This document shows positions 22,210-42,928 of a stretch of 64,000 nucleotides of DNA, one piece after another (position 1 is the first letter of the stretch; every line of letters starts with the position of its first letter). Position numbers and translations under genes: made by a program. Source of the stretch: Sphingopyxis sp. YF1 (GTDB lineage: Bacteria; Pseudomonadota; Alphaproteobacteria; Sphingomonadales; Sphingomonadaceae); contig NZ_CP033204.1 of the NCBI RefSeq assembly GCF_022701295.1, forward strand, positions 4,244,501-4,308,500, in the 5' to 3' direction. The notes under the pieces are model-generated. The model saw only the letters and a program-made list of their open reading frames with translations, searched no databases and had not been told where the DNA came from.

Positions 22210-22219
22210 GCCGCGCGCG

Positions 22220-24833: not shown

Positions 24834-24837
24834 GGCG

Positions 24838-25068: not shown

Positions 25069-25457
25069 CGCCGCTCGAAGCCAGCAAGGCGATGTATGCC
25101 GAGGTTTCCAAGGGCAACTGGGCTGCGGTCGCCGACTATATGGCGGACAATTTCGTCATCCATGAACCCGCATCGCTGCCCTATGGCGGCGAATGGCGCG
25201 GGCGCGATGCGCTCCAGCGGCTGTACGCGCATGTGATGGGCTATTGGGAAGATCCCGTCGTCAAATGGCAGGAACTGGTCGGCGGCGAAACATACGCCGT
25301 CGCGTTGCTCCACTTCACGGTGACCGCAAAATCGAGCGGCAAGCGTTTCGAGACGCATATCGCCGAGGTCACCGAGTTCGACGACGCGGGCAAGATGGCG
25401 TCGATGCGCATCCATTATTTCGACACCGCGCATATGGTCGAGCAATTGAAGGCATAG
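25065..25457 (+). CDS. NTF2-like/SnoaL-type protein
   Basis: A 130-residue protein of the cone-shaped NTF2-like superfamily, which includes SnoaL cyclases, ketosteroid isomerases and small dehydratases. N-terminal helices 'MYAEVSKGNWAAVADYMADNFVIHE' features are followed by 'WRGRDALQRLYAHVM' and C-terminal strands 'THIAEVTEFDDAGKMASMRIHYFD'. Polar residues in the pocket (H, D, E) could act as base and acid, but no experimentally defined motif is matched. It sits directly before a ketosteroid-dehydrogenase-like gene, which suggests an isomerase or hydratase role on the same substrate (inference). Confidence 0.8.
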   Translation: MTPLEASKAMYAEVSKGNWAAVADYMADNFVIHEPASLPYGGEWRGRDALQRLYAHVMGYWEDPVVKWQELVGGETYAVALLHFTVTAKSSGKRFETHIAEVTEFDDAGKMASMRIHYFDTAHMVEQLKA

Positions 25458-25459
25458 AG

Positions 25460-28449: not shown

Positions 28450-29874
28450 TCAGGGCAATTGCCCGCCCATATATTTCCCCAGCGTGCGGTGGAAATGGCG
28501 GATGCGGCTTTCCTGATAATGGCCGAGCTCGATCACGCCGTTGGGGGAGGATTTCATCCCTTCCTGCACATAGGGGAGATTCTCCATGTCCTGGTCGAAA
28601 ACCCCCGCGAGCGCGGCGCCGATCAGATGGCTGGCGCTGGCGAAGGGCTGATCGTCGGGGATCAGGTGCATCGGTGCCGACTTCGGCGCTTGCTCGCCCT
28701 TGGGCGTGCGCATCAGGATGCGGACTTCCATCAGGCAATGATCGGCGTCGCCCCACGGCCGCCAGCGATAGACGATGTTCGGCGTGAGACCGCCCCACGG
28801 CGCCCAGTTGGGAAAGACATTATAGGTGAAATTGTCGAGCATCTCGCTGTCGGTCGCGTCCGAATAATCATGCCCGTTCATCGCCGAAAAGGCGGCGCGG
28901 TTCGCCTCGGCGAGCACCTTGCGCGCGAGCATCGGGTCGTCGGCATCGAAACCCTTGAGGTCGTCGGCCGAGGCGGTGCTGCGCCGCGCACGGCTGTCGC
29001 CGCCGCCGATGAACTCCTCGAGCGACTTCAGGACATAGAATTGATCCTTGCCCTTGATGTGCGGCGACATCGCACCCGCCGGCGTGATCGCGCGGTTGAG
29101 GAAATCGCCGTACAAGTCGTAGCGCGTGTTCGCGTCGGCGGTGAAACCCAGGATCTGCGGGTGGGTGACGATGCTGTGCCACGCCTCCATGAAGGCCTCG
29201 GCCACCGCTTTCCAGTTGGCGGGGATGACGCGGCCGACCCATGCTCCGGTATGGCATTCATCGAGGCGCCAGTTGTCGAAATGCTCGACGCCGGGACCGA
29301 CCCAGTCGCGAAAGCCCGGCAGGTCGTGGTTTTCGGTGACGAGAAGGAAGCCCTGCCAGCTTTCGACCTTGAGCTCGGGCAGGCGCATGTCCTTGTCTTC
29401 GAGATGCCTGAAGTCCCACGCGCACGGCGCTTCCTTGAAACGGCCGTCGTGATGCCAGGAAAAGCCGTGGAAGGGGCAGCGCAGGTTCACCGCGGGCCCG
29501 CTCTCGGTCCTGAGCTTGCGGCCGCGGTGGAGGCAGACGTTATAGAAGGCCTTGACCGACAGATCCTTCTGACGAACGAGCAAGATGCTCTTTTCGTTGA
29601 TGTCATAGACCACGGTGTCGCCCGGGTTCGGCATATCCTCTTCGCGCGCCGCGAACTGCCAGATGTTCGGCCACATCTTTTCGCGTTCGAGCCGGGCCCA
29701 ATCCTCGCTGACATAACGCTCGATCGCGATCGGTTCGTCGCCGAGTTCCTGATTGGATTCGGCGAACAGATAATCGGGGACGCGCCGCGTATCGGCGTTG
29801 AGCATGTCGGTGTAGCTCGTGCCGGGGCAGCGGTCGTCGCGGTGCTGGTCCTGGGGAGGCGAGAGGTCGTTCAT
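28450..29874 (-). CDS. Rieske non-haem iron oxygenase, alpha subunit (first)
   Basis: Predicted terminal oxygenase component that activates O2 to hydroxylate or demethylate a ring compound. The 474-residue protein has the Rieske 2Fe-2S ligands C114-x-H116 ('CLHRGRK') and C133-x2-H136 ('CPFHGFSW'). Its mononuclear iron motif has a His-x4-His in 'EAWHSIVTHP'. The start 'MNDLSPP' lies 17 bp after the stop of the upstream Rieske gene, so the two share a transcript. No small beta subunit, ferredoxin or reductase is encoded nearby; electrons must come from a partner elsewhere. Substrate unknown. Confidence 0.9.
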   Translation of the reverse strand: MNDLSPPQDQHRDDRCPGTSYTDMLNADTRRVPDYLFAESNQELGDEPIAIERYVSEDWARLEREKMWPNIWQFAAREEDMPNPGDTVVYDINEKSILLVRQKDLSVKAFYNVCLHRGRKLRTESGPAVNLRCPFHGFSWHHDGRFKEAPCAWDFRHLEDKDMRLPELKVESWQGFLLVTENHDLPGFRDWVGPGVEHFDNWRLDECHTGAWVGRVIPANWKAVAEAFMEAWHSIVTHPQILGFTADANTRYDLYGDFLNRAITPAGAMSPHIKGKDQFYVLKSLEEFIGGGDSRARRSTASADDLKGFDADDPMLARKVLAEANRAAFSAMNGHDYSDATDSEMLDNFTYNVFPNWAPWGGLTPNIVYRWRPWGDADHCLMEVRILMRTPKGEQAPKSAPMHLIPDDQPFASASHLIGAALAGVFDQDMENLPYVQEGMKSSPNGVIELGHYQESRIRHFHRTLGKYMGGQLP

Positions 29875-29891
29875 CTGATACTCCGAATGGG

Positions 29892-31121
29892 TCAGGCGAT
29901 CTGGTCGAGCGGCATCTTGCACGCCGCGGCGATCGAGCGGTGGACGCCGTGCAGCGCCGGCTCGTTCGCGCCGAGGACGACGTGAAAGTCGGCAGGCGCG
30001 GTCATCAGGTTCGCATAGCCGTTGCTGGCGACGCGATAATCCTCGGTCTGGACGACGGTGGCGGTCGCGTCATAGGCCATCTCGCACATCGCGCGATGCT
30101 GGTCATTTTCGACGCCGAAGGGAGCATAGACCGCGAACTGGCAGAACATCCTGCCCGCGCCGTCGGGAAAGAGCCGGAAGACCTGCGTAAAATAGACGCC
30201 GGGCGTCACCGCGCCAAAGAAGATGACGGTGTTGGGGAAAAGGAAATGGACCCCGCCATAGTCGGTCTCGGGCCATTCGCTCTCGTCCTTGCCGACCAGA
30301 TTGCCGATCGACAGGTCGGGAAAGCTGACGCGGTGATGGCGCCCGATCGGTTCATAGACGTTGCGGTCGCTGTAATGCGTACCGCCGATCGTCGAGGCGT
30401 GGAGCATCTTGAAATGATAGCCCTCGCCGTAGGTGTCGAGCGCGAATTTCCAGTTCGATTCGGCGGTGAGGATGCCCTTTTTCACCGGCTCGGCGCGGTG
30501 GAGTTCGAGCTGCGCGAGTACGGGGCCGAAATCGCCGAGATGCGCCGCGGCGTCGATCGGCGCGCCCTCGGGATTGGCACGCACGAAGATCAGCCCGAGA
30601 TGCTCGGCGCACGGCAGTTCGATCAGGTTCCGCGCGCCGATCTCGCAGTTCGCGAAGCCTTCCTTGCCCGGCTGCCCGACGAGTTGGCCCGCGGGATCGA
30701 AGGTCCAGGCGTGGAAGGGGCAGACGAGCCGCGGACGTGCGCCGCTCCACGGTTCCTTTTCCTCGACCAGCTTGGCGCCGCGGTGCGTGCACATGTTGAG
30801 GAAGGCGCGCGCGACGCCGTCCTTGCCGCGCGTGACGAGGATCGACGGGCCGACCGAGTCGAAGACGAGTGTGTCGCCGGTCTGGGGGATGTCGCCCGAC
30901 AATCCCGCGACGATCGGTTCGTTCCGGAAGATATGCTCCATCTCGGCCGCGTTGCGGGCTTCGCTCATATAGATGGATTTGTGCAGCGGCAGCGGCGCCT
31001 CCGCCCGGTCGGTCCGGTTTTCGGACACGATCGCGACCAGTTTGCGCAGCCCGGTGCGCGCGTTGCGCTTGCGGACGGCGAACCAGTCCTGCGGCGCGAT
31101 CTTCGGATCGGACTCGGCCAT
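29892..31121 (-). CDS. Rieske non-haem iron oxygenase, alpha subunit (second)
   Basis: A 409-residue terminal oxygenase subunit with Rieske ligands C111-x-H113 ('CTHRGAKL') and C134-x2-H137 ('CPFHAWTF'), and the iron-site His-x4-His in 'EGYHFKMLH'. It differs strongly from its neighbour in length and sequence, so the pair are not a recent duplication and probably attack different intermediates. It is first in a two-gene operon; the start is preceded by 'gaggga'. The 100-bp region shared with the divergent VOC gene contains a 24-bp palindrome. No redox partners are adjacent. Confidence 0.9.
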   Translation of the reverse strand: MAESDPKIAPQDWFAVRKRNARTGLRKLVAIVSENRTDRAEAPLPLHKSIYMSEARNAAEMEHIFRNEPIVAGLSGDIPQTGDTLVFDSVGPSILVTRGKDGVARAFLNMCTHRGAKLVEEKEPWSGARPRLVCPFHAWTFDPAGQLVGQPGKEGFANCEIGARNLIELPCAEHLGLIFVRANPEGAPIDAAAHLGDFGPVLAQLELHRAEPVKKGILTAESNWKFALDTYGEGYHFKMLHASTIGGTHYSDRNVYEPIGRHHRVSFPDLSIGNLVGKDESEWPETDYGGVHFLFPNTVIFFGAVTPGVYFTQVFRLFPDGAGRMFCQFAVYAPFGVENDQHRAMCEMAYDATATVVQTEDYRVASNGYANLMTAPADFHVVLGANEPALHGVHRSIAAACKMPLDQIA

Positions 31122-31222: not shown

Positions 31223-31759
31223 ATGGCCGGACCCGCGACGCTCGCATCGCTCGGCGATATCATGCAGCTGGCCTATGTGCCGTCGGACTTCGATGCCGCG
31301 GTGAAGCACTGGACCGGGGTGATGGGCGCGGGCCCCTTCTTCCTGCTGCCGAACGTGTCGCTCCCCGGCGGCCGCTATCGCGGCGAGGCGAGCGACCCCG
31401 TCTTCACCATGGCGCTCGGCTATTGGGGCGACCTGCAGATCGAGCTGATCCGGCCGGAGAATGACGCGCGGTCGATCTATCGCGGCGAATATGCGGTGGG
31501 CGAGGGGCTGCACCATGTGTGCGTGCTGGTCGACTCGATCGCCGAGGCGCGGGCGCGCTGCGCCGAGGTCGGCGCGGAGATCATCTTTGAAGCCCCGGTC
31601 GGCGACAAGGGCGGAGTGATCTATGCCGATCCCGGCACGGGACCGGGAACGCTGGTCGAGCTGCTCGAACCGCAGCCGGGCACGCGCGAACTGTTCGCGA
31701 TGATGCGCGATGCGGCGAAGGACTGGGATGGGAGCGCGCCGCTGCGGTCGCTGGGGTAG
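31223..31759 (+). CDS. VOC (glyoxalase/dioxygenase) family protein
   Basis: A 178-residue protein with two beta-alpha-beta-beta-beta modules. Potential metal ligands are Q15 ('MQLAYV'), E74 ('IELIRP'), H97 ('LHHVCV') and E146 ('LVELLEP'), a set reminiscent of epimerase or lyase members rather than of two-domain extradiol dioxygenases, which are longer. The ATG follows 'gggggagaga'. It is a single gene, divergent from the Rieske operon and convergent with the LuxR operon, so it probably serves the same pathway. Reaction unknown. Confidence 0.78.
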   Translation: MAGPATLASLGDIMQLAYVPSDFDAAVKHWTGVMGAGPFFLLPNVSLPGGRYRGEASDPVFTMALGYWGDLQIELIRPENDARSIYRGEYAVGEGLHHVCVLVDSIAEARARCAEVGAEIIFEAPVGDKGGVIYADPGTGPGTLVELLEPQPGTRELFAMMRDAAKDWDGSAPLRSLG

Positions 31760-31782
31760 GGACGCGGCTTATTGGTAAAACT

Positions 31783-31882
31783 TCGTCATTGCGAGCGGAG
31801 CGCAGCAATCTCCAGCTATCGACCCAGCTCTGGGCCGATGGCTGAAGATTGCCGCGTCGCCTTCGGCTCCTCGCAATGACGG
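31783..31882. repeat. Inverted repeat, family D
   Basis: Outer arms 'cgtcattgcgagcggagcgc' and 'cttcggctcctcgcaatgac' with inner 'gcaatct' / 'agattgc' arms make a 100-bp imperfect palindrome. It fills the space between the convergent VOC and LuxR stops (24 bp and 4 bp away), a position suited to a two-way terminator. Only one copy was noticed here. Confidence 0.8.
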
Positions 31883-31885
31883 TAT

Positions 31886-32752
31886 TCAGCTGTTCGCCCC
31901 CAGATAGCCGAGCTGTCCCGCCTTGAAGATCGTTTGCGCGCGGTTGACCGAGTTCAGCTTCTCGCCCGCGCGGTGGACGTGATAGCGCACCGTCGCGTGG
32001 CTCAGCGAGATGATCATCCCGATCTCGCGGTCGGTCTTGCCGATCGCGGCCCAGCGCAGGCATTCGACCTCGCGCTTCGACAATTCACAGTCCGACGGGA
32101 TCCGTCTTTTGGTCCGCATCGCCGAGGCATAACCGGCGATGAAGCGCCGCGTTGCAAGCGCCAGCGTGTCGCCGACGTCCGCAAACAGGTCGGATAGGTC
32201 GTCGATTTCGGGATCGTTCGGATGAAAGCTGTTCGCCGAAATCTGCCCGAACGGCAGGTGCACCGGAACGACGATCGCCGCCTTGTAGCGCGGGTTCGCG
32301 GCGAAGTAGCGCGCCGGGTCGATTTCATCGAGATAGGGATTGGGCTGCGCGGTGCGAAACCCGTTGCTGTTACACCAGAAGGGCTCGCTTTCGTAGCGGC
32401 ACGAGCGCGGCAGCGGCGAATGGAGCGCCAGCCGGTGATCTTCCCACCAACGTTCGCCGTCGCCGAGCCAGCCGAACAGGTCGGCGGCAAGGACGGCGCC
32501 ATCGGCGTCGACCATCGGCTCCTTCGAGGCGATGTCGTCGCACAGCGCGGCGCGCAGCCCATAGGCCGCCGCATAGTCGCGCAGCAGCACCGCGGCATCG
32601 TGGATATCCTCCACGCAGCGGATCGTGACCGCATCGACGAGCGTCCTTGCATCCATCGGGGGCGCGAACCCGTCGACCGGCAGTTTTTCTGCCTGTTCTC
32701 CCATGGCGGGGACTATTTCATAGTGGCTGGCAAGTCGCAATGCAGGAGTCAT
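31886..32752 (-). CDS. LuxR-type transcriptional regulator (solo)
   Basis: A 288-residue regulator with a C-terminal LuxR/GerE helix-turn-helix (about 225-285: 'LSKREVECLRWAAIGKTDRE', 'SHATVRYHVHRAGEKL'). The N-terminal ligand-sensing domain resembles autoinducer-binding domains ('ERWWEDHRLALHSPLPRSC'). The Asp-Pro pair typical of acyl-homoserine-lactone receptors is not obvious and no luxI is present, so a pathway metabolite may be the ligand. Its ATG overlaps the acyl-CoA dehydrogenase stop (ATGA), making it the last gene of the long catabolic operon. This choice of start relies on the overlap. Confidence 0.85.
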   Translation of the reverse strand: MTPALRLASHYEIVPAMGEQAEKLPVDGFAPPMDARTLVDAVTIRCVEDIHDAAVLLRDYAAAYGLRAALCDDIASKEPMVDADGAVLAADLFGWLGDGERWWEDHRLALHSPLPRSCRYESEPFWCNSNGFRTAQPNPYLDEIDPARYFAANPRYKAAIVVPVHLPFGQISANSFHPNDPEIDDLSDLFADVGDTLALATRRFIAGYASAMRTKRRIPSDCELSKREVECLRWAAIGKTDREIGMIISLSHATVRYHVHRAGEKLNSVNRAQTIFKAGQLGYLGANS

Positions 32753-33957
32753 AAGCGGAGCACCGTCTTTGCTATGATGTTCTTCTGAACCTCGCTCGAA
32801 CCGCCGAATACGGTCCAGGCACGACTGTTGAGATAGCGGGCGGCGGCAACCTGCGCGTCCTCGTCGCCGATCGGCGCGGGCGCTTCATTGCCGTAGAGCG
32901 GGCGGACGGTGGGCAGTTGCAGCCCGTCATAACCGTGGAGGTCCATCGCCAACCCGTCGATCCGCTGATGGATTTCGGACGAGAGCAATTTGACGAGCGA
33001 GGTCTGCGGCCCGGCGGGGCGGCCCTTGGCGATGTCGGCGAGGATACGCAGTTCGGTGGTTTCGAGCGCCTCGGCCTCGAGGCGCAGCTTTGCAATCCGC
33101 GTCGCGACCTGGACGTCGCCGCCGAGTGATCCGTTGTGCCCGCTCGGCGCGATGCCCGCGAGCTGTTCGAGATGATCGATCGCGCGGATCAGGCGCGGAG
33201 CGTGGAAGGAGCCGCCGCGCTCATTCTCGAGCAGGAATTTGGCGATCGTCCAGCCTTGCCCTTCCTCGCCGATGCGGTTGTCCACCGAAGTGCGCGCGCC
33301 GTCGAGGAAGACCTGGTTGACCTCGTGATCGCCCGCCATGGTGATGATCGGGCTGACCGTGACGCCGGGCTGGTCCATGGGAACGAGCAGGAAGCTGATC
33401 CCCGCCTGTTTCTTGACCTCGCTGTCGGTGCGGACAAGGCAGAAGATCCAGTTGGCGTGGTGCGCGTGGGTGGTCCAGATCTTCGAGCCGTCGACGACAT
33501 AGTCGTCGCCGTCGCGCCGCGCGCGGGTGCGCAGCGACGCGAGGTCGGAGCCGCTCTGCGGTTCGGAATAGCCCTGGCACCAATAATCGGTCCCGGCGCG
33601 AATTGCGGGAAGGAAGCGATCCTTCTGCTCCTGCGTTCCGAAGGCGCAGATCACCGGACCGACGAGGCGCAGGCCGAGCACCGACAGCGCGGGCGCCCCC
33701 GCGATCGCGCATTCCTTTTCGAAGATATAGCGCTGCATCGGCGACCAGCCGGTGCCGCCGCAATCCTCGGGCCAGTGATAGGCGACCCAGCCCTTGTCGT
33801 TGAGGATGCGGTGCCAGACGAGGCCGATATCGGGTTCGACGAAGACCCCGGGGGTGCGCCGGGCGCCGTCGCGGACTTCGGGCGGCAGCGAGGTGCGAAG
33901 GAAGTCGCGGACCTCCTCGCGAAATTCGAGTTCTTCGGGGGTAAGATCGAGATCCAT
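32749..33957 (-). CDS. Acyl-CoA dehydrogenase, larger partner
   Basis: A 402-residue FAD enzyme expected to insert an alpha,beta double bond into an acyl-CoA, passing electrons to ETF. The N-terminal helical domain begins 'MDLDLTPEELEFREEVRDFL'; the middle beta domain has 'CQGYSEPQSGSDLASL'; the C-terminal domain ends 'WTVFGGSSEVQKNIIAKTVL'. It lies 7 bp after the thiolase-fold gene. With the shorter homologue two genes upstream it may form an alpha2beta2 heterotetramer, the arrangement known for steroid side-chain enzymes such as FadE28-FadE29. ATGA overlap with the LuxR gene. Confidence 0.92.
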   Translation of the reverse strand: MDLDLTPEELEFREEVRDFLRTSLPPEVRDGARRTPGVFVEPDIGLVWHRILNDKGWVAYHWPEDCGGTGWSPMQRYIFEKECAIAGAPALSVLGLRLVGPVICAFGTQEQKDRFLPAIRAGTDYWCQGYSEPQSGSDLASLRTRARRDGDDYVVDGSKIWTTHAHHANWIFCLVRTDSEVKKQAGISFLLVPMDQPGVTVSPIITMAGDHEVNQVFLDGARTSVDNRIGEEGQGWTIAKFLLENERGGSFHAPRLIRAIDHLEQLAGIAPSGHNGSLGGDVQVATRIAKLRLEAEALETTELRILADIAKGRPAGPQTSLVKLLSSEIHQRIDGLAMDLHGYDGLQLPTVRPLYGNEAPAPIGDEDAQVAAARYLNSRAWTVFGGSSEVQKNIIAKTVLRL

Positions 33958-33964
33958 GTTTCCG

Positions 33965-35113
33965 CTAGCGTTCGAGGATCGCCACCGCCGACAGGCCGGG
34001 CGCGCCATAGACATGAGAATAGCCGACCCGCGGGCGGTTCGGCACCTGCCGTTCGCCGCCGCGGCCGCGGAGCTGCACGGTGTTTTCGTAAACCTGCCGG
34101 AGGCCGGAGGCGCCGATCGGTTCGCCGCACGCAAGGCAGCCGCCATCGGTGTTGATCGGCATCCTGCCGCCGATCTCGCTCCATCCTTCGGCGAGCCATT
34201 GTTCCTGCTCCCCGTCGGCGCAGAAGCCGTTTTCGGCCATGTGCATGATTTCGGCGCCGCTTTCGGTGTCCTGCAATTGCGCGACCGAGACGTCCTCGGG
34301 GCCGATGCCCGCCATTTCGAAGGCGGCCTTGCTGGCGATCTGGGTCGGCTTGCCGCCGCCATTGACGCTGATCGACGGCGCGAACACCTCGAACGATCCC
34401 TCGGGGCGGGTGCGGAAGGCGACGCTGGCGATGCGCACCGCGTCGGCGCCGAGTTCGCGGACCTTTTTGCCGCTCGCGAGGATCAGCGCGACCGCGCCCT
34501 CGGCGGGTGAGCAGAACATATATTTGGTCAGCGGATCGTTGACCATCGGCGCGTTCAGGATCGTGTCGAGATCGACCGGCGAACGCCGCCAGGCGTGGTC
34601 GCACAGCGTGCCGTTGCGAAACGCCTTTTCGGCGACGAGACCCAGAGTCCGCCGGCTGATCCCGTGGAGCGCCATGTAGCGCTGGATCTTGAGCGCGAAG
34701 AATTGCGTCGTCAGCATCATGCCCGTCTCGCCGTACCATTCGGGAAGGCCGTAATCGGACGGTTTGGCGTTGAAGGCGCCGCGCGGATGCTTGTCGAAGC
34801 CGACGGCGAGCGCGATGTCGCAAGCCCCGGCCGCGATCGCGTTGCGCGCCGCGGTCAGCGCGCTGCCGCCGGTCGCACAGCCGTTGGCGACGTTGATGAA
34901 GGGCACGCTCGTCAGCCCGAGCTCGTTGACCATGATGTCGGCGGAGCCGGCGGCAGCCGATCCACCATAGGCGAATTCGACGTCGCTCCATGCGACGCCC
35001 GCGTCGGCCAGCGCTTCGCGCACGGCATAGACGCCCTGATCGCGGCCCGAACGGCTGTCGGTACGGCCGAAGGGATGGATGCCCGCGCCGATGATATAGA
35101 CGTCGTCACTCAT
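33965..35113 (-). CDS. Thiolase-fold enzyme, lipid-transfer/Ltp2-like with altered active site
   Basis: A 382-residue protein of the thiolase superfamily, SCP-x/Ltp branch. A nucleophile-position Cys is present (C79 in 'NGCATGGSAL'). The usual GHPxGxTG motif reads 'GEPIGASG', so the catalytic His is Glu at 331. The C-terminal CxG-type loop reads 'VYGAPG', with Tyr 369 instead of Cys. Such changes are expected for retro-aldolases of the Ltp2/Sal type rather than true thiolases (inference). It is ATGA-coupled to a DUF35 protein, the known partner of those aldolases. Likely role: splitting off a two- or three-carbon unit from a polycyclic side chain. Confidence 0.85.
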   Translation of the reverse strand: MSDDVYIIGAGIHPFGRTDSRSGRDQGVYAVREALADAGVAWSDVEFAYGGSAAAGSADIMVNELGLTSVPFINVANGCATGGSALTAARNAIAAGACDIALAVGFDKHPRGAFNAKPSDYGLPEWYGETGMMLTTQFFALKIQRYMALHGISRRTLGLVAEKAFRNGTLCDHAWRRSPVDLDTILNAPMVNDPLTKYMFCSPAEGAVALILASGKKVRELGADAVRIASVAFRTRPEGSFEVFAPSISVNGGGKPTQIASKAAFEMAGIGPEDVSVAQLQDTESGAEIMHMAENGFCADGEQEQWLAEGWSEIGGRMPINTDGGCLACGEPIGASGLRQVYENTVQLRGRGGERQVPNRPRVGYSHVYGAPGLSAVAILER

Positions 35114-35502
35114 GGCTGGCGCTCCGGACGAAAGGCATAGGTCGATCGGTGGTCGTCGAAGGCGACGACGACAAATTCCATCGGCATTCCGATCACAAGG
35201 TCGGCGGCGGTCGCATCGGCGATCCGCGTCTCGACGATCACCTCGCCGGGCAGCTCGACATAGCCGATCAGGAAGGGCTGGAAGGGCTGCGGGCCGCTGT
35301 ACGGTTCCTTGGGTTCGAAGCCCTGCGTCGTCCACGACCAGAGCGTGCCGCGACGCGACAATGCGACGGGTTCGACCAGCGCGGCGGCGTCGCCTTCGGG
35401 AACGGGAAAGACGATCTCGCCGTCGGCGCGCCGTCCCCCGATCAGCCGCGGTTCGGGATCGTCGGTCCACAGGCCGGGTGCGATGGGGGCGAGGGTGCTC
35501 AT
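35110..35502 (-). CDS. DUF35 OB-fold protein lacking the zinc ribbon cysteines
   Basis: A 130-residue partner-type subunit. The C-terminal OB-fold region is recognisable ('GTLWSWTTQGF', 'PFLIGYVELPGEVIVETRI'). The N-terminal part keeps the rubredoxin-like outline ('LIGGRRADGEIVFPVPEGDA'), but the four cysteines that bind zinc in other DUF35 proteins are absent; the chain has no cysteine at all. DUF35 proteins bind and activate thiolase-fold aldolases. Overlaps by 4 bp with both neighbours place it between the shorter acyl-CoA dehydrogenase and the thiolase-fold gene. Confidence 0.82.
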   Translation of the reverse strand: MSTLAPIAPGLWTDDPEPRLIGGRRADGEIVFPVPEGDAAALVEPVALSRRGTLWSWTTQGFEPKEPYSGPQPFQPFLIGYVELPGEVIVETRIADATAADLVIGMPMEFVVVAFDDHRSTYAFRPERQP

Positions 35503-36560
35503 GCCGCCCTCGCATAGCTGCGCAGGCAATGGTCCTGATCGCCGAAAAGCTTGTCGAGCAGCATGACGCGCTTCAGCGCATGGCCGATCGCGAGCTCGTC
35601 GGTCTGGCCCATGCCGCCGTGCATCTGTACCGCCTCCAGCCCGATGCGTGCCGCGGCTTCGCCGACGAAGGCCTTGGCGCCCGCAGCAATCCGGGGCCAG
35701 TTCGCATCGTCGGTTGTCGGGTCGAGCATTGCGGTGCGCAGCACCATCGACCGCGCCTGTTCGAGCGCGGCGTAACATTCGACGAGCCGGTGCTGGAGCG
35801 CCTGGAAACTGCCGATCGCGGCGCCGAACTGCTGGCGTTCGCCGACATAGGCGAGGGTGTCGTCGAACATCGTCTGTGCGAGTCCGACCATTTCTGCGGC
35901 GGCGAGCGTGCGGACGTCGCCGATGACGCGCCGGAATTTGGCGTCTGGCAGGTCGAAGATTTCGGCGAGCGTGCGGAGCAGGTCCACGGTGGAGGCATTC
36001 GAGCCGTCGATGACGGGATAGTCCTGCCGCACGATGCCGGCAGCGCTTTTCTCGACCTTGGCGAGTTTGTCGCCAGCGGCGGTGACGAGCACTATGTCGG
36101 CAAGCGGAGCGCCGAGGACGAAGGTCTTGGCGCCCGCGACCTGATTGGCCTCGGTCTTGGTACCGATGGCTTCGGTTTCGTAGCGGCGTCCGGGTTCGGC
36201 GAAGGCGACCGCTGCGAACTGCGTCCCGGTGGCCAGTTCGCCGACCAGGGCGCCATCGCCCGCCGCTGCGGCGAGCCGGATCGGCAGCACGCCATTTTCG
36301 AGCCACGGGTCGATCGCGAGTCCCTTGCCGAGCGCTTCGGCGACGAGTGCAAGGTCGACCATCGTGCCGCCCATGCCGCCCATCGTTTCCGGCGCGGCGA
36401 GCGCGAGCAGGCCGAGATCGGCGACGTCCCGCCAGCGCGCGCGCGAATAACCGCCCTCGGTCCGCCGCATTGCATGCCGCGCGGCAATGTCGACCGGACC
36501 CAGAAAGCGCCCGATCGTGTCGCGCGTCAGCTGCTGGCCTTCGTCGAGGTCGAAATTCAT
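35499..36560 (-). CDS. Acyl-CoA dehydrogenase, shorter partner
   Basis: A 353-residue member of the acyl-CoA dehydrogenase family, shorter and more diverged than the 402-residue homologue of the same operon. It starts 'MNFDLDEGQQLTRDTIGRFL', has 'RQQFGAAIGSFQALQHRLVE' and ends 'MHGGMGQTDELAIGHALKR'. The flavin-contacting segment of the middle domain is degenerate. In heterotetrameric steroid dehydrogenases one subunit has lost part of the active site in this way; a similar arrangement is inferred here. It overlaps the P450 stop and the DUF35 start by 4 bp each. Confidence 0.88.
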   Translation of the reverse strand: MNFDLDEGQQLTRDTIGRFLGPVDIAARHAMRRTEGGYSRARWRDVADLGLLALAAPETMGGMGGTMVDLALVAEALGKGLAIDPWLENGVLPIRLAAAAGDGALVGELATGTQFAAVAFAEPGRRYETEAIGTKTEANQVAGAKTFVLGAPLADIVLVTAAGDKLAKVEKSAAGIVRQDYPVIDGSNASTVDLLRTLAEIFDLPDAKFRRVIGDVRTLAAAEMVGLAQTMFDDTLAYVGERQQFGAAIGSFQALQHRLVECYAALEQARSMVLRTAMLDPTTDDANWPRIAAGAKAFVGEAAARIGLEAVQMHGGMGQTDELAIGHALKRVMLLDKLFGDQDHCLRSYARAA

Positions 36561-37801
36561 GCCCGCCGCCCGAAGCTGATGGGCAGCGTGGTGAGCCCGC
36601 GCAGCAGCATGTTCGGCGGCCAGCTCGGCACATGTCCCTCGGCGACGCGGAAATCGGTCAGGCGCTTCAGCAGTTCCGTATAGGCGACCGCCATTTCCTT
36701 GCGGCTCAGCATGTTGCCGACACACATATGGATGCCCTTGCCAAAGGCGAGGTGGCTGCGCGCATTGGCGCGCTCGATGTCGAACCGGTCGGGATCGGGA
36801 TATTTGGTCGGATCGCGGTTTGCCGCGGCATAGCGCAGCTGCACCATGGCACCCCTGGGAATTTTGACCCCGCCGAGTTCGGCGTCCTTCAGCACCATGC
36901 GCCACATGCCCGCGGTCGGGCTTTCGATGCGCAGAACCTCTTCGACGAGGTTGATGATCGCGCGCTCATTGCCCTCGTCGGCGGCGGCGACGGCCTTGGC
37001 CATCTGGTCGGGGTTTTCGATCAGCTGGAGCAGCCCGCCGGCGAGCGCCGAAGTCGTCGTTTCGTTCCCCGCGACCATCAGTTGCTGCATGATCGACAGG
37101 ATCTCGGCATCCTCGAGCGGGCGTTCGCCGTCGACTTCGGCATGGACGAGGTCGGAGAGCAGGTCGTCGGTGCGGTTCGCGCGGCGTTCGTCGATCTTGG
37201 CCTTCATATAATGCTGGAACTCGACGACCTCGCGCGCGCATTCGAGTTCGCGTTCCTTGGGGATCATGCGCCCGAGCCGGTCGACGAAGGCGTCGGACCA
37301 GCGCTTCACGCGATCGAGGTCGTTCTCCATGCCGATCTGGCTCGCGATCATCGCGACGGGCAGCGGGATGCCGAAATCGCGGACGAAGTCGGCCTCGCCT
37401 TTTGCGGCCATTTTTTCGATCAGGTCGATCACGACCCCCCGCATCTCCTCCTCGATCGCGGCGACGCGCTTCATCGAGAAGGCGAGGTTGACGAGCTTGC
37501 GAAAGCGCGTGTGGACCGGCGGGTCGGCGGTGAGCAAAGTGTCGACCTGCGGCCACCCCCCGGACAGGATCGCGGCGACGTCGCCGTCCTCGGCCATCGC
37601 GCCCGACAATGTGCCCTGGAAATTGTTCGAGAAAGTCTCGACCTCACCGGTCGCCTGCGCACAAAGGTCATAGGAGAGGACGAGGAACATTCCCTCGGAC
37701 AGTTGGACGACGGGGCTTTTCGCCATCCAGGCGCGATAATAGTCGAACGGGTCGGCGATGACCTGCGGGTCGAAAAAACTGCCTGCGGCGATAGTGTTCA
37801 C
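36557..37801 (-). CDS. Cytochrome P450
   Basis: A soluble bacterial P450 of 414 residues, expected to hydroxylate a hydrophobic substrate with electrons from a ferredoxin. The haem-binding motif is F353-x2-G-x-H-x-C360-x-G ('FGKGIHMCVG'). The oxygen-activating I-helix has 'AGNETTT' (244-250), and the E-x-x-R motif and 'ADPPVHTRFRKLVN' are intact. The start is GTG after 'gggaagaggcgc'. No ferredoxin or ferredoxin reductase is encoded in the window. A 75-bp gap upstream could hold an internal promoter. The four genes downstream are all coupled to it by overlaps or very short gaps. Confidence 0.95.
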   Translation of the reverse strand: MNTIAAGSFFDPQVIADPFDYYRAWMAKSPVVQLSEGMFLVLSYDLCAQATGEVETFSNNFQGTLSGAMAEDGDVAAILSGGWPQVDTLLTADPPVHTRFRKLVNLAFSMKRVAAIEEEMRGVVIDLIEKMAAKGEADFVRDFGIPLPVAMIASQIGMENDLDRVKRWSDAFVDRLGRMIPKERELECAREVVEFQHYMKAKIDERRANRTDDLLSDLVHAEVDGERPLEDAEILSIMQQLMVAGNETTTSALAGGLLQLIENPDQMAKAVAAADEGNERAIINLVEEVLRIESPTAGMWRMVLKDAELGGVKIPRGAMVQLRYAAANRDPTKYPDPDRFDIERANARSHLAFGKGIHMCVGNMLSRKEMAVAYTELLKRLTDFRVAEGHVPSWPPNMLLRGLTTLPISFGRRA

Positions 37802-37876
37802 GCGCCTCTTCCCTCGATCTTCTCTTTATACGCGCAACTATATGCAGCGGCTCCCGGCACGCGATGCACACTTTCG

Positions 37877-38665
37877 TTAGGCGCGTGGCGGGGCCGCGGC
37901 GACATGGTCGAGCGCGTTGGCGATCAGACGGCGGATGTTCGGGTCGGCGTAGGTCGCCGGGCCGTCGCCCGGCTGGAGATAGACGAGGCGTCCGGCGCCG
38001 ACGGGTTTTTCCCACGCGATCAGGTCGCTTTCGGGGCGATGCGCCCAACCGTCATTGCTGAACATCCGTCCCGCGACAGCCTGCGCCGCCGAATAGAAAT
38101 TGTCGCGGACGAAGGCGTGATCAGCGCGGAGGAGAGGGGTCACGGCGCCCCATATCGGTGCCAGATAGAGTTCGTCACAGAGTGGAAAGCGCGAAGGCAG
38201 ACCAGCCGTCACCGGATGTGTGGGGTCGAGTATGACGGCATCGTAGCGGACGTCGTGACGATAGCCCGAGTCGAGATGGGTCTCACCGTTCGCGACGCCT
38301 GGCGCATAGAGGAAGCGCCCGCCGAGCATGTCGGCCCATTCGGGCCATTCGGCCCAGCCGGCGATCGCATGGTGCATCGCGACCGCGCCGCCGCCGCGCG
38401 CGAAAAAGTCGGTGATCGCGCGGCGATAGGTGAAGGACGGAGGGCGTGTTGCGGCCCGCCCGTCACCGAAGCTGTAGCCGGGCATGTCGTAGAAGAGGAT
38501 CGCGTCGGCACCGGTCGCGGCGCCTGCGGCGACCGCCGTTTCGGCTTCGGGATGGATCAAGTGGGTGATCGTCCAGCCATCGAGACTTTCAAGCAGTTCG
38601 GTAAAGGGGGCGGCCTCGAAGGGATGGCCGCCTGACAGGACGAGAAGGCTGCGCGACCCGGTCAT
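37877..38665 (-). CDS. ThuA-domain protein (first)
   Basis: A 262-residue protein filled by a ThuA-like domain, a class I glutamine-amidotransferase-like fold. Hallmarks are 'LLVLSGGHPFEAAPF', 'ADAILFYDMPGYSF' and 'FFARGGGAVAMHHAIAGW', where the His-His after 'GGAVAM' is typical. The Cys-His-Glu triad of true amidotransferases is not evident. ThuA proteins occur in sugar catabolism and have been linked to keto-sugar processing; the role in a P450/acyl-CoA operon is unknown. ATGA overlap with the upstream reductase. A second, distantly similar ThuA protein lies at 52998. Confidence 0.82.
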   Translation of the reverse strand: MTGSRSLLVLSGGHPFEAAPFTELLESLDGWTITHLIHPEAETAVAAGAATGADAILFYDMPGYSFGDGRAATRPPSFTYRRAITDFFARGGGAVAMHHAIAGWAEWPEWADMLGGRFLYAPGVANGETHLDSGYRHDVRYDAVILDPTHPVTAGLPSRFPLCDELYLAPIWGAVTPLLRADHAFVRDNFYSAAQAVAGRMFSNDGWAHRPESDLIAWEKPVGAGRLVYLQPGDGPATYADPNIRRLIANALDHVAAAPPRA

Positions 38666-39678
38666 GCGATCTTCAGTATCATTTTGCCCTGATTGCTTCC
38701 GGCAAACAGGCGCATGAAGGCGTCGAAGCTGTTTTCGAGGCCTTCGTCGATATGTTCGTCAGCGACGAGTTCGCCCTGTTGCAGCCAGCCCGCCATTTCG
38801 GCTCCTCCCTCTGAAAAACGCGCAATATAGTCGGCGACGAGCAGACCCCGGATCGAGGCGCGATGCACGATCAATTGCCAGATGTTGCGCGCGCCGATCT
38901 TTTCGACGCTGTTATACTCGCTGATCAGCCCGCACAGTCCGACTCGCGCGCCGTGTCGCAGATTGTTGAGGCCCGCGTCGAGGATGTCGCCACCGACATT
39001 TTCGAAGATGATATCGACCCCGTCGGGGGCTTCGGCGCGGATCGCGTCGGTCAGCGCCGCAAGGTCCTTGCCGCGATAGTCGATCGCGGCGTCGAAGCCG
39101 TAGCGATCGATCAGCCTGGCGCACTTCTCGGGTCCGCCCGCGATGCCGATGACCTTGCTCGCGCCCTTGATCTTGGCAATCTGCCCGACGAGCGAGCCGA
39201 CCGCGCCCGCCGCGCCGGTGACGAGCACGATATCGCCGGGTTTGGGTTCGCAGACGTCGATATAGCCGAAATAGGCGGTCATCCCGACCGCGCCCAGAAC
39301 TGACAGATAGTTGGTGACCGATGGCACGAGGCTCGCATCGATCACCTGGGTAAAGCCGCCCGCGACGCCGACCGAATAATCCTCGATCGCGTTGAGGCCG
39401 AGCACCCATTGGCCGGGTGCGAAACCCTCGGCCCGGCTCGCTTCGACGACGCCCACCGTCGTCGCGCGCACCGGCGTGCCGAGCGGGATCGGCGGCATAT
39501 AGCTCGGCGCATCGTCCATCCAGCCGCGGATCGCGGGGTCGAGCGAGGCATAATGGTTGCGGATCAGGAATTCGCCGTCTGCGAGTTCGGGCGTTGCTTC
39601 GGTCACGAGCGAGAAATCTTCCCGTACGGGTTCGCCATCGGGCCGGCGGACGAGCAGGAAGCGGCGGTTGTCGGGCAT
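38662..39678 (-). CDS. NADP-dependent MDR oxidoreductase (first)
   Basis: A 338-residue zinc-free medium-chain reductase of the leukotriene B4 dehydrogenase / 2-alkenal reductase type, expected to reduce an activated carbon-carbon double bond with NADPH. The N-terminal GroES-like domain ('NHYASLDPAIRGWMDD') is followed by the Rossmann domain with 'VTGAAGAVGSLVGQIAKIKG' and 'DIIFENVGGDILDAG', both family signatures. It lies 9 bp after the molybdoenzyme and overlaps the ThuA gene by 4 bp. A paralogue at 41930 starts the divergent operon. Confidence 0.9.
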   Translation of the reverse strand: MPDNRRFLLVRRPDGEPVREDFSLVTEATPELADGEFLIRNHYASLDPAIRGWMDDAPSYMPPIPLGTPVRATTVGVVEASRAEGFAPGQWVLGLNAIEDYSVGVAGGFTQVIDASLVPSVTNYLSVLGAVGMTAYFGYIDVCEPKPGDIVLVTGAAGAVGSLVGQIAKIKGASKVIGIAGGPEKCARLIDRYGFDAAIDYRGKDLAALTDAIRAEAPDGVDIIFENVGGDILDAGLNNLRHGARVGLCGLISEYNSVEKIGARNIWQLIVHRASIRGLLVADYIARFSEGGAEMAGWLQQGELVADEHIDEGLENSFDAFMRLFAGSNQGKMILKIA

Positions 39679-39687
39679 GAAAACTCC

Positions 39688-41811
39688 TCAGGCGGGAACG
39701 ATGGAGACCGGGATCGCGCTTTGCAGCGACTGGCCGGTGATGGTGTCGTAGCGGGCGCTTTCGCTGACGAGGCGGTTGGTCGAGACGCCATGCTCATGGA
39801 CGCCGTCGGGACCGATGTCGGGGCCGCCGAAGGCATGCGCCATCGACACGACGCCGGGGCGCATATTCTCCGCCGCGCGCGCGACCGCGACGACCTCGCC
39901 TGCCGCCGAACGGATGCGCACGGTGTCGCCGTCGCTGCATGGGATGCGCGCGAGATCGTCGGGATGCAGGAACGCCGGGTTAGTCGTGCGCCTGGCGCGC
40001 AGCGCGGGCAGATTCTGTCCGGTCGAATTGAAGCGGTGGCGGCTGCGGCGCGACACCATGCGCCAGGGGAAGTCGGGCGTCGGCTGGTCGGCATCGGCAT
40101 AGGCGATGAGCTGGTCGGGCATCCTGCCCGCCGTCAGGTCGAAACGGCCGGGCGCATCGGGATCGCCCGCCTCGACCACCGGGTGGAGGTCGGCATAGAT
40201 CACCGCCTTGCCGTCGACCGTATCGCGGCGCACCTTGCTTGGCAGGGCCGCGCAGCCCGCGACCATCAGGTCGAGGAAGGCCTCCTTGGTGGGGCGTTCA
40301 TCCATCGGGCAGGCGCCGCCCGCGAGCGGCAGGCCGGTGCCGAGACGGTGCGCAAGTTCCCAGAGCATCTCCCACTCCTCGAGCAGCCCTGCGGGCGCGT
40401 CGATCATCGCCTCGGTATAGCGGGCATAGGGGATTTCGTACCACCATTCGCTGAGGTTGCTGATGTCCTCGCGTTCGAGGCACATCTTCGGCGCGAGGAT
40501 GTAATCGGCGCGCTTTGCGGTCGCCGACGCGGCGTTGACGTCGATCGAGACGAGCAACTCGAGACCGTCGATCGCGCGCGTCATCTTGTCCTGGTCGGGG
40601 AAGGCGACCACCGGATTGCCGCCGATCACGATCAGCGCGCGCACCTGCCCCTCGCCGGGCGTCAGCATCTCGTCGGCGAGGACGTTGCACGGCATCTCCA
40701 TGCCGAGATGCGTCAGCCCGCGGAAACGCGAGGCGGGGAAACCCTCGCCATAAAGCGCCATCGGCGGCGCGACCTGCGCCCGGCGCGGTGTGACGGGGGT
40801 GAAGACGCGCGGGATCGAGCTCAACTCTCCCTCGCGGCAAAAGCGCCCGCAGAGGATGTTGAGCGCCGAGACGAGATATTGGGTGAGCGTGCCGTTGCCC
40901 GCCATCTCGGGCCCGGTGCCCGTCGAGACGACGCCTTTCGTGCCGTTCGCGAACATGCGCGCTGCGGCGACGAGCTGGCTTTCCTCGACCCCCGCGCGCG
41001 CGGCGGCGACGTCGGGGGTGAAGGGCGCGACCGCGCGCTGCAGTTCGTCGAGGCCATCGACATAGCGCTGGACAAAGGCCTTGTCGGTGAGGCCTTCGGC
41101 GAGGATGACGTGGATGATCCCCGCAAGCAGCGCGGGATCCTCGCCCGGCCGCACGGGCAGGTGGATATGCGCGAGCGCCGCGACGTCGCTCTGCCGCGGG
41201 TCGGCGACGATCAGCTTCAGGCCGCCTTCGAGCGCATCGCGCAGGCGGCGCGAGGGCGAGAAGGGCGGCAGCCCGCCCGGCGGACCGTAGTGCGAGACGA
41301 TCGGGTTGTTGCCGATGAAGAAGGCGACGTCGGCATCGGCGAAGCTGTGCATTCCGCCCATCCAGCTGCCGTAGCGCATCGTCGTATAGACTTTCGCGGG
41401 CTGGTCGAGCGTGACCGAGGTGTAGATGTTGCGCGTGCCGAGCCCCTGCGCGAAGGCCATCGCGCTGCCGACCCCGGCGCTGTTCTGGAAGGCGTAGGTG
41501 CCACCATAGACGGCGACGGCGTGCGGTCCATGCTCGGCAACGATCGCGCCGAGCGTTGCCGCGATCTCGTCGAGCGCAGCGTCCGTCGCAATGTCCTCGA
41601 ACGTGCCATCGACGCGCTTCTGCGACACCGTCAGCCGCTGCGGGCCGTGATGCGCCTCGGCGAGCTGGCGACCCTTGATGCAGGTATAGCCGCCGAACAC
41701 CGGGTCGTTGGGGTCGCCCTGCACCTTGGTGACGCGGCCGTCGTCGACCGTGACCAGCATCGCGCAATTGGCATGGCAGAAGCGGCAGAAACTGCGGCGG
41801 ACTTCGGGCAT
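39688..41811 (-). CDS. Molybdopterin (bis-MGD) oxidoreductase with N-terminal 4Fe-4S site
   Basis: A 707-residue enzyme of the DMSO-reductase superfamily. Four cysteines for a 4Fe-4S cluster stand at C9, C12, C16 and C44 ('CRFCHANC', 'YTCIKG'). The molybdopterin domains follow ('GTGPEMAGNGTLTQYLV', 'ALIVIGGNPVVAFPDQ') and a C-terminal dinucleotide-binding domain begins near residue 590. There is no Tat signal, so it should be cytoplasmic, and no partner subunit is encoded beside it. Reaction unknown: hydroxylation, reduction or hydration are all known in the superfamily. It heads the nine-gene operon. Confidence 0.9.
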   Translation of the reverse strand: MPEVRRSFCRFCHANCAMLVTVDDGRVTKVQGDPNDPVFGGYTCIKGRQLAEAHHGPQRLTVSQKRVDGTFEDIATDAALDEIAATLGAIVAEHGPHAVAVYGGTYAFQNSAGVGSAMAFAQGLGTRNIYTSVTLDQPAKVYTTMRYGSWMGGMHSFADADVAFFIGNNPIVSHYGPPGGLPPFSPSRRLRDALEGGLKLIVADPRQSDVAALAHIHLPVRPGEDPALLAGIIHVILAEGLTDKAFVQRYVDGLDELQRAVAPFTPDVAAARAGVEESQLVAAARMFANGTKGVVSTGTGPEMAGNGTLTQYLVSALNILCGRFCREGELSSIPRVFTPVTPRRAQVAPPMALYGEGFPASRFRGLTHLGMEMPCNVLADEMLTPGEGQVRALIVIGGNPVVAFPDQDKMTRAIDGLELLVSIDVNAASATAKRADYILAPKMCLEREDISNLSEWWYEIPYARYTEAMIDAPAGLLEEWEMLWELAHRLGTGLPLAGGACPMDERPTKEAFLDLMVAGCAALPSKVRRDTVDGKAVIYADLHPVVEAGDPDAPGRFDLTAGRMPDQLIAYADADQPTPDFPWRMVSRRSRHRFNSTGQNLPALRARRTTNPAFLHPDDLARIPCSDGDTVRIRSAAGEVVAVARAAENMRPGVVSMAHAFGGPDIGPDGVHEHGVSTNRLVSESARYDTITGQSLQSAIPVSIVPA

Positions 41812-41929
41812 CGTCTCTCTCCCTTGATGACACCCTAGGCCGCGGGCGCTCCCGATCGACTGGCACTTTTGGCGGTGGCTGGCGGCGGGGGGCAGGCGCA
41901 GTTTCGCGGCATCAACAGGGAGAGTATCG

Positions 41930-42928
41930 ATGCCGACATCGCGCCAATGGCTGCTGAACGGACATCCGCGCGGGCGCGGGATCGAGGACGGTGACTTCCG
42001 GCTCGTCGAGACCGAAATCGTCGCGCCGGGCGATGGCGAGTTACTGCTTCGGACGCTCTATCTCGGCTTCGATCCGGCGCAGAAGGGCTGGATGGAGAAT
42101 ATCGCCGACTATGTCGCGCCGATGGCGATCGGCGACGTGATGCGCGGCAGCGCGATCAGCGAAGTCGTCGAGAGCGAGCACCCGGGCTTTGCCGCCGGTG
42201 ACCTCGTCATGGGATCGACCGGCTGGACCGAATGGCATGTGTCGAACGGCGAGGGGCTGGTGAAGATCGACACGCAATTGCCGCCGACTGCGATGCTGTC
42301 GGTGCTGGGAACCACGGGCGTCACCGCTTATTGCGGCCTGTTCAAGGTCGGGCGACCGGTCGCGGGTGATACGGTGCTCGTGTCGGGGGCGGCGGGGGCG
42401 ACGGGATCGGTCGTCGGACAGCTTGCCAGGATTGCCGGATGCAGGGCGGTCGGGATCGCCGGGGGCGAGGACAAGTGCCGCTGGCTCGTCGAGGAGGCGG
42501 GTTACGACGCCGCGATCGACTACAAGGCGGGCGAGGTGCGGCGGCAGATCCGCGAACATTGCCCCGGCGGCGTCAATGTCGTCTTCGATAATGTCGGCGG
42601 CGCGATCCTCAACGACATGCTCGGCGAGATCGCGACCGGCGCGCGCGTCGCGGTGTGCGGCGGGATCAGCCGCTACGAGATGGGGACGCTGCCCGCCGGA
42701 CCGCAGAATTATTTCAACCTGATCTTCCGCCGCGGCTCGATGGCGGGCTTCATCGTGCTCGACTGGGCGAGCGAGTTTCCGGAGATCCGCAAGCGGCTCG
42801 AGGGCTTCGTTCTCGACGGGCGCCTGACCTATCGCGAGGATGTGCAGCACGGGTTCGAGAATGCGCCCGATACGCTGAAGCGCCTGTTCAGCGGGCAGAA
42901 CCGCGGCAAACAACTCTTGAAGCTCTGA
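41930..42928 (+). CDS. NADP-dependent MDR oxidoreductase (second)
   Basis: A 332-residue zinc-free medium-chain reductase, paralogous to the one at 38662. It has 'LYLGFDPAQKGWMENIADYV' in the substrate domain, 'VSGAAGATGSVVGQLARIAG' for cofactor binding and 'NVVFDNVGGAILNDMLGEIA'. It is expected to reduce an enone or enoyl-type bond with NADPH. It starts after 'cagggagag', 118 bp from the divergent molybdoenzyme, and is followed after 11 bp by an SDR. Confidence 0.9.
   Translation: MPTSRQWLLNGHPRGRGIEDGDFRLVETEIVAPGDGELLLRTLYLGFDPAQKGWMENIADYVAPMAIGDVMRGSAISEVVESEHPGFAAGDLVMGSTGWTEWHVSNGEGLVKIDTQLPPTAMLSVLGTTGVTAYCGLFKVGRPVAGDTVLVSGAAGATGSVVGQLARIAGCRAVGIAGGEDKCRWLVEEAGYDAAIDYKAGEVRRQIREHCPGGVNVVFDNVGGAILNDMLGEIATGARVAVCGGISRYEMGTLPAGPQNYFNLIFRRGSMAGFIVLDWASEFPEIRKRLEGFVLDGRLTYREDVQHGFENAPDTLKRLFSGQNRGKQLLKL

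Follow-up and report, generated by a model that had tools for sequence, protein, structure and literature searches.

Introduction

Among the described systems closest to the locus studied here are the actinobacterial igr operon (cyp125, fadE28/29, chsH2, chsH1 and ltp2) and ORF40-44 of Comamonas, which combine a cytochrome P450, two acyl-CoA dehydrogenases (ACADs), a DUF35 protein and a thiolase-fold protein. The same combination occurs in a nine-gene operon at positions 31886-41811 of a 64,000-nucleotide stretch of the complete 4.37-Mb chromosome of Sphingopyxis sp. YF1 (NZ_CP033204.1, 4,244,501 to 4,308,500), referred to below as the window. An earlier note made from the sequence alone had read the operon as a variant of the steroid side-chain-shortening systems, without a MaoC hydratase and with an added molybdoenzyme. 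Our analysis leads to a different proposal, which we hold with about even confidence: the locus would be a catabolic operon under LuxR control with which Sphingomonadaceae degrade a carboxylic acid that is activated with CoA, lacks a phenolic group and is alicyclic or isoprenoid-like, and not a steroid side-chain operon.

Compared with igr, this operon has no MaoC protein, no ChsH2 fusion, no zinc ribbon (zf-ChsH2) and no YDHF motif, and its thiolase-fold protein, hereafter THL, shares 23% identity with Ltp2 (6ok1) when the folds are aligned. THL shares the nucleophilic cysteine and the overall fold with the benzoylsuccinyl-CoA thiolase BbsAB (7pxp) and an archaeal acetoacetyl-CoA thiolase (6esq), both of which we take to have a DUF35 partner; the histidines of HDxF and GHP/GHA in these enzymes are, however, Gln281 and Glu331 in THL. 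By description alone, it can also be likened to a sphingomonad thiolase, ipfDE of Rhizorhabdus wittichii, in which ipfE is presumably a DUF35 protein; of the 26 plasmid records that THL matched at 1e-40, none is from Rhizorhabdus. According to the accessible part of PMC9195938, this ibuprofen thiolase is thought to free propionyl-CoA from an activated acid. With the Sal-Shy bile-acid aldolase of Proteobacteria, THL has the DUF35-partnered SCP2-thiolase fold in common, but it differs by Cys79 and the motif QDTE, and the operon contains no Shy MaoC-DUF35 fusion. In the text available from PMC12329534, Ltp2 carries the motif YDHF and Sal the motif YDCY (Tyr302/Cys304) with no equivalent of the thiolase cysteine, and the table available from PMC12502768 (Table 2) places true Ltp2 proteins at 61-64% identity between Comamonas and four Actinobacteria. 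Among openly licensed PMC papers, we found no description of this operon by title or start of abstract.

Results

A nine-gene operon with a conserved core

The list of open reading frames (ORFs) and Pfam searches placed nine genes on the minus strand across 31886-41811, in a single direction and in the families that had been named before. From the first gene to the last, they encode a molybdopterin oxidoreductase (MOX); MDR1 (38662-39678), an NADPH-dependent MDR resembling alkenal and curcumin reductases (Pfam; NCBIfam CurA at 1.4e-94, below cut-off); ThuA1 (37877-38665), a ThuA-domain protein (PF06283, 4.4e-20); a P450; a short ACAD (ACADS); a DUF35 protein; THL; a long ACAD (ACADL); and a LuxR-type regulator (31886-32752; PF00196, 3.5e-13), whose start lies at 32704 by a simple codon score versus 32752 in the listed ORF. 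The junctions from MOX to LuxR measure 9, -4, 75, -4, -4, -4, 7 and -4 bp. The 4-bp overlaps previously described as prevailing are thus found at five of eight junctions, and the 75 bp between ThuA1 and P450 are the sole large gap. A MaoC domain was absent from all nine proteins in the Pfam search, as the earlier note had stated.

To follow the operon in other genomes, we fetched 100 loci (20 unnamed and 80 named), which were picked by their THL and many of which are close relatives; 96 were distinct by THL DNA and 70 were at least 19 kb long. A seven-gene core (ACADL, THL, DUF35, ACADS, P450, MDR1 and MOX) was complete in 54 of these 70 long loci, with identical order and strand in 54/54, which argues that the operon is not a chance arrangement. 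Taken singly, the genes were present in 64 (ACADL), 68 (DUF35), 64 (ACADS), 57 (P450), 57 (MDR1), 58 (MOX) and 50 (LuxR) of the long loci. The nearest named relatives are Sphingopyxis, with THL 93-96% identical (the genome's own record was possibly excluded). In the 298 genomes of the family, THL matches at E <= 1e-60 were obtained in 66, 63 of them at 66-100% identity and three at 35-39%; the former 63 are counted as THL-positive.

The cluster was found in Erythrobacter, Porphyrobacter, Blastomonas and Sphingopyxis, and SAR92/Porticoccaceae loci carry a reduced form consisting of ACADL-THL-DUF35-ACADS, a CoA ligase and LuxR. Plasmid pNL2 of Novosphingobium aromaticivorans encodes an OB-fold protein, a thiolase, an ACAD, E1-alpha, E1-beta and E2 together with ThuA, Rieske and LuxR proteins and an oppositely oriented ACAD. 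Many relatives have additional SDR and ThuA genes between ACADL/THL and near P450/MOX, so that the window holds a trimmed version of the operon; a second ThuA gene and further SDR genes of the window lie at 49-55 kb. In Rhodococcus and N. resinovorum, we observed DUF35-THL-ACAD-phosphotransferase modules. Kinase-ACAD pairs are known from 4-hydroxyacid metabolism, and the phosphotransferase gene that follows THL-ACADL in three loci (L146, L147 and L150) hints, by analogy, that these relatives may use a gamma-hydroxyacyl-CoA step. A differently arranged set of THL, DUF35, both ACADs and a separate P450 was seen in a metagenome-assembled genome (MAG) labelled Novosphingobium sp. Chol11 (L138).

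THL departs from thiolases and from steroid aldolases at its catalytic residues

In alignments of THL (33965-35113, minus strand) with solved thiolases, Cys79 falls on the nucleophilic cysteine, whereas HDxF is replaced by QDTE and GHP by GEP. Among 101 sequences (the window plus the 100 loci, at >= 65% identity), C79, Q281, D282, T283, E284 and E331 were each found in 101/101 and C329 in 100/101. The nucleophilic cysteine of thiolases is thus retained throughout and both catalytic histidines are replaced, by Gln281 and Glu331. The aldolase motif YDxF is missing from THL, which in turn possesses the cysteine that Sal lacks. Judged by these residues, THL is neither a normal thiolase nor an aldolase of the igr/Sal type.

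A maximum-likelihood tree of 26 rows, in which the root is unsure and the outgroup branches are long, grouped THL in a clade of 15 with support of 100/100. This clade takes in three Rhodococcus, one Streptomyces and Mycobacterium branderi, and spans alpha- and gammaproteobacteria and Actinobacteria. In all five members from Actinobacteria, residue 329 is Asn; Asp occurs at 284 in M. branderi and Rhodococcus USK13, and Leu at 326 in M. branderi. Because of this variation, the marks of the clade are Cys79, Gln281-Asp-Thr and Glu331. A structure model of THL was of medium quality (pLDDT 72, pTM 0.81) and weak around 324-333, including Glu331; its best fold matches were thiolases, with Ltp2 and Sal ranked lower in the same list.

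The same genome encodes, at 1.94-1.96 Mb, three more thiolase-fold proteins of YDGF/YDHF type without the cysteine, two of which adjoin DUF35 proteins with a zinc ribbon (PF12172), so that both kinds of thiolase-fold protein coexist in this strain. The surrounding region (1.93-1.97 Mb; loci L037 and L038) contains three DUF35 matches beside these three proteins, and also amidohydrolases, a P450, CoA-transferases, an APH kinase and a hydrolase-flavin reductase fusion.

An unusual molybdoenzyme accompanies THL

MOX (39688-41811, minus strand; 707 aa) was assigned by Pfam and by partial alignments with NapA, FdhF and acetylene hydratase as a soluble Mo/W enzyme of the bis-pyranopterin type. It shares domain families and the [4Fe-4S] cysteines with formate dehydrogenase, periplasmic nitrate reductase and acetylene hydratase; C9, C12, C16 and C44 were present in 69 or 70 of 75 sequences, the remainder being gaps. 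At the metal-ligand position, MOX has Asp136 in place of Cys or Sec. Asp136 aligns under a cysteine of NapA, FdhF and acetylene hydratase that we take to be the metal ligand in each, although the pairwise FdhF match has a gap at this position. The pair Asp136-Gln137, present in 74/75 MOX sequences (one gap), takes the place of Cys-His in FdhF and of a Cys in NapA and acetylene hydratase; by these residues, MOX is therefore not a formate dehydrogenase. The structure model of MOX was poor (pLDDT 55, pTM 0.50) and was for this reason not used for a fold search.

Orthologs of MOX (>= 57% identity) were detected in 31 of the 298 family genomes, and all 31 were THL-positive. In six of them (G030, G038, G089, G153, G243 and G278) a distance of 24 kb to 1.9 Mb separates MOX from THL on the same contig. 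Five others (G113, G203, G250, G271 and G284) are drafts that have the two genes on separate contigs, and here linked genes may have been split by a contig break. Since the pair is separated in several genomes, linkage drag is not the whole cause of the co-occurrence. MOX is thus very likely a partner of THL in the same pathway, and the molybdoenzyme that had been proposed as an addition to the operon keeps its place.

Among seven plasmid records matching MOX, four homologs at 38-43% identity were examined, and the Asp was kept in 4/4. Plasmid homologs with the Asp motif would represent a wider uncharacterised family. They sit in varied clusters near genes for a P450, an SDR, a 2-hydroxyacyl-CoA dehydratase or a TonB receptor (L161-L164), and in one case (L164) a different OB-fold/thiolase pair is found about 5.4 kb from the MOX homolog.

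DUF35 protein, ACAD pair and P450

The DUF35 protein (35110-35502, minus strand) is a single 130-aa OB domain (PF01796 only) without a zinc ribbon, and CxxC was found in 0/95 orthologs. Unlike these, the DUF35 protein of Rhodococcus qingshengii (L147, 13627-14004) has kept a CxxC...CxxC zinc ribbon.

For ACADL (32749-33957, minus strand), the best NCBIfam model was PimC (1.4e-107), and for ACADS (35499-36560, minus strand; PimD/IpdE2-like) it was PimD (8.5e-53), both far below cut-off. The best solved relative of ACADL is 4x28_A, which we take to be ChsE4, half of a steroid alpha2beta2 ACAD. Glu246 of ACADL, present in 84/84 sequences, is aligned with a Glu of 4x28_A that is presumably the catalytic base, and the other known base position is occupied by Gly385 (83/84, one gap). 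In an alignment of 22 sampled sequences, ACADS ended before the position of the MCAD-type catalytic Glu in 22/22. Counted back from a helix anchor, a register rule that we assume to hold for ACADS, its Glu223 is seven residues off, and we read it as out of register with Glu246. ACADS is accordingly a likely, though not proven, inert partner of ACADL.

The P450 (36557-37801, minus strand) has its heme ligand at Cys360 and the motif AGNET at 244. Its best match in the PDB was 6gmf, followed by CYP142A3 and others; a CYP125 ancestor matched at 2.7e-53.

A linked carotenoid-oxygenase homolog may point away from phenolic substrates

Near the operon, the minus-strand gene at 45464-46921 encodes a member of the carotenoid-oxygenase family (RPE65; Pfam, NCBIfam). 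Matches at E <= 1e-130 were found in 20 of the 298 genomes (13 at >= 63% and seven at 46-49% identity), of which 20/20 were THL-positive and 17 carried MOX. In the part of PMC8191317 available to us, the lignostilbene dioxygenase LSD4 binds the 4-hydroxyl of stilbenes through Tyr-101 and Lys-134. Phe60 and Asn121 of RPE65 match Phe-59 and Asn-120 of LSD4 as given there, setting an offset of +1. With this offset, obtained by counting and without alignment to LSD4, Phe102 and Met135 of RPE65 stand at the likely places of Tyr101 and Lys134, and three relatives agree. As these residues seem to replace the pair that holds the phenolic hydroxyl, they suggest a non-phenolic olefin as the substrate of RPE65.

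Proposed pathway

Within the proposed catabolic operon, our leading guess for the substrate is a compound of the apocarotenoid type. P450, the Rieske oxygenases, MDR/SDR enzymes and the linked RPE65 would functionalise or cut the hydrocarbon part, and the resulting acid would be activated by a CoA ligase such as the neighbouring ACS. A heteromer of ACADL, with Glu246 as base, and inert ACADS could then form the alpha,beta-unsaturated acyl-CoA. THL with DUF35 would cut a C-C bond by way of an acyl-enzyme that forms when Cys79 attacks a beta-carbonyl; with Glu331 and Gln281 standing where thiolases have their two histidines, the chemistry would be retro-Claisen or hydrolytic and not the Tyr-driven retro-aldol reaction of Sal and Ltp2. 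MOX, given its co-occurrence with THL, may supply a needed redox or hydration step of the same pathway.

Several observations weigh against this proposal. Neither a hydratase nor a 3-hydroxyacyl-CoA dehydrogenase was found by Pfam among the nine operon proteins. The best NCBIfam model of RPE65 is lignostilbene dioxygenase (1.9e-117, below cut-off), followed by apocarotenoid at 2.6e-90. Glu223 of ACADS is invariant (85/85) and was placed on Glu246 of ACADL by MAFFT. Coupling of ACADs to THL is not obligatory, since three Novosphingobium loci (L076, L080 and L082) contain THL-DUF35 close to MOX but no ACADs within the 21 kb that were fetched. A THL-negative genome (G174) contains a 44% MOX homolog, the 32nd match, which we set aside as non-orthologous. 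Fisher values for MOX and THL are inflated by shared descent, the 31 MOX genomes representing 18 genera, and the five cases of separation on different contigs carry the limitation of drafts. Finally, the steroid-pathway marker HsaF was found in 26/63 THL-positive versus 52/235 other genomes (odds ratio 2.5, p 0.003). This enrichment stems from lower-scoring THL genomes (22/41) and not from the best-scoring ones (4/22), a split that was made after the scores were seen and that places G219 (75% identity, lower score) in the lower group.

Alternative explanations

The HsaF enrichment bears on the reading that the operon serves the side chain of steroids or bile acids in the manner of sphingomonads such as Sphingobium Chol11, whose bile-acid side-chain cluster comprises SclA, Scd4AB and Bsa, with the product handed to the steroid nucleus pathway. 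The nearest solved relative of ACADL is 4x28_A, which we take to be ChsE4; CYP142A3 and the CYP125 ancestor are among the P450 matches; a flavoprotein, FAD2, resembles KstD below cut-off; and the MAG labelled Chol11 carries the THL cluster. In the table available from PMC8399759 (Table 1), Shy, Sal and Sad are missing from Chol11 as well. Yet no HsaF/TesF passed the cut-off in the Sphingopyxis genome itself (TIGR03217, best 48.5 bits versus a cut-off of 286), while 78 of the 298 family genomes have a match over it, and of the 22 genomes that score best for THL, the Sphingopyxis genome among them, 18 lack HsaF. Searched with one KstD model, NF005882, the genome gave nothing over the cut-off, and none of the 27 solved sequences that match Rieske2, one of the two neighbouring Rieske oxygenases, at 1e-10 bears the name KshA (of the two, Rieske2 was compared). 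In the accessible text of PMC12882949, deletion of an igr-like operon of Caenibius tardaugens, which may or may not be related to this operon, left growth on bile salts unaffected. On HsaF, the one KstD model and the solved Rieske2 relatives, we rejected steroids as the main explanation and regard it as unlikely. What stands of the igr-like core described earlier is the paired long and short ACADs, the adjacent DUF35-thiolase-fold pair and the conserved catabolic operon, whereas an affiliation with igr or Scd-Shy-Sal is not supported in view of the missing MaoC, the DUF35 without zinc ribbon and the THL without YDxF. The operon may still shorten the side chain of some acyl-CoA, but a steroid substrate is improbable here.

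An ordinary beta-oxidation operon for branched-chain fatty acids or dicarboxylates, with PimC/PimD-like ACADs and a normal thiolase, would agree with PimC and PimD as best ACAD models, far below cut-off as they are, and with the DUF35-THL-ACAD and kinase modules of Rhodococcus and N. resinovorum, which resemble acyl-CoA metabolism. We consider it rather unlikely, as both thiolase histidines are absent from THL in all 101 sequences, the nine proteins include no hydratase or hydroxyacyl-CoA dehydrogenase, and plain fatty acids would not call for P450, Rieske, MOX and RPE65 enzymes. Degradation of phenolic plant dimers (stilbenoids or lignans), with RPE65 acting as a lignostilbene dioxygenase, would fit that enzyme's best NCBIfam model and the Rieske, GMC and SDR enzymes nearby, and such pathways are known from sphingomonads according to the accessible parts of PMC11323797 and PMC12607616. 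It has a small probability in our estimation: the LSD4 residues Tyr101/Lys134 are by count Phe102/Met135 here and in three relatives (PMC8191317, as available), and the accessible text of the papers on beta-5 dimers and pinoresinol (PMC11323797, PMC12607616) is without the terms thiolase, molybd and acyl-CoA. Very unlikely is a biosynthetic or modifying operon with acyl transfer as in PhlABC, because catabolism better fits the oxidative genes, the adjacent TonB receptors and the patchy presence (63/298 genomes).

A bolder but tentative extension is that THL, with its centre of Cys, Glu and Gln, founds a new DUF35-activated class of the thiolase superfamily, neither thiolase nor aldolase, which would act in an undescribed aerobic degradation of isoprenoids or apocarotenoids by sphingomonads together with an Asp-ligated soluble MOX and a non-phenolic carotenoid-oxygenase homolog. 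DUF35-adjacent thiolase-fold proteins are easily taken for steroid aldolases or thiolases, and the THL clade breaks both rules at its catalytic residues. The strict co-occurrence of MOX and THL provides a two-gene link open to direct test, and the spread over Erythrobacter, Porphyrobacter, Blastomonas, Sphingopyxis and SAR92 may indicate an abundant aquatic substrate with unassigned degradation genes.

Promoter region and regulation

MDR2 (41930-42928, plus strand; Pfam) diverges from the operon across a spacer of 118 bp and was found in 46/70 long loci. The divergent MOX/MDR2 intergenic region contains a 17-nt element, CGACTGRCACTTTTGNC (41857-41873, plus strand), that recurs exactly in 43 of the 52 distinct loci sharing the gene pair, the rest of the spacer being poorly conserved. 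It occurs once in the window; with up to three mismatches, 38/100 shuffles also gave at least one site, so that its weight lies in its conservation and not in the single match. A 15-nt core had one exact and three one-mismatch matches in the genome versus one for the reversed control, too few to define a regulon. We regard the element as a candidate site for the LuxR protein of the operon. A sigma-70 scan of 31700-42100 revealed no promoter-like site, and terminators in this interval were at chance level (7 versus 6.4).

Neighbouring genes

ACS (43888-45450, minus strand; Pfam) is an acyl-CoA ligase and the candidate activating enzyme. As a pathway marker it was dropped, because it is not THL-specific (136/298 genomes at 1e-120). 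On the other side of the operon lie a VOC/glyoxalase-like gene (31223-31759, plus strand; 44/70 long loci) and the two Rieske oxygenase genes (28450-29874 and 29892-31121, minus strand), with Rieske1 in 41/70 and Rieske2 in 18/70 long loci. Further out, a plus-strand group at 21445-28026, partly conserved with the THL cluster, encodes SDR0, GST, E1-alpha, E1-beta, a 76-aa lipoyl protein, SnoaL, a KstD-like flavoprotein and NmrA. E1-beta was present in 12/70 long loci, and pNL2 also joins THL-ACADL with E1-alpha/E1-beta/E2/VOC. The 76-aa protein (24838-25068) is a free-standing lipoyl domain encoded after E1-alpha and E1-beta, whereas the E1 genes of pNL2 are followed by one for a full-length dihydrolipoamide acetyltransferase; the E1 complex here may for this reason use a detached lipoyl carrier. 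TonB-dependent receptors are encoded near the enzyme genes at 47032-49404 and 57547-60384, and these two could import the substrate.

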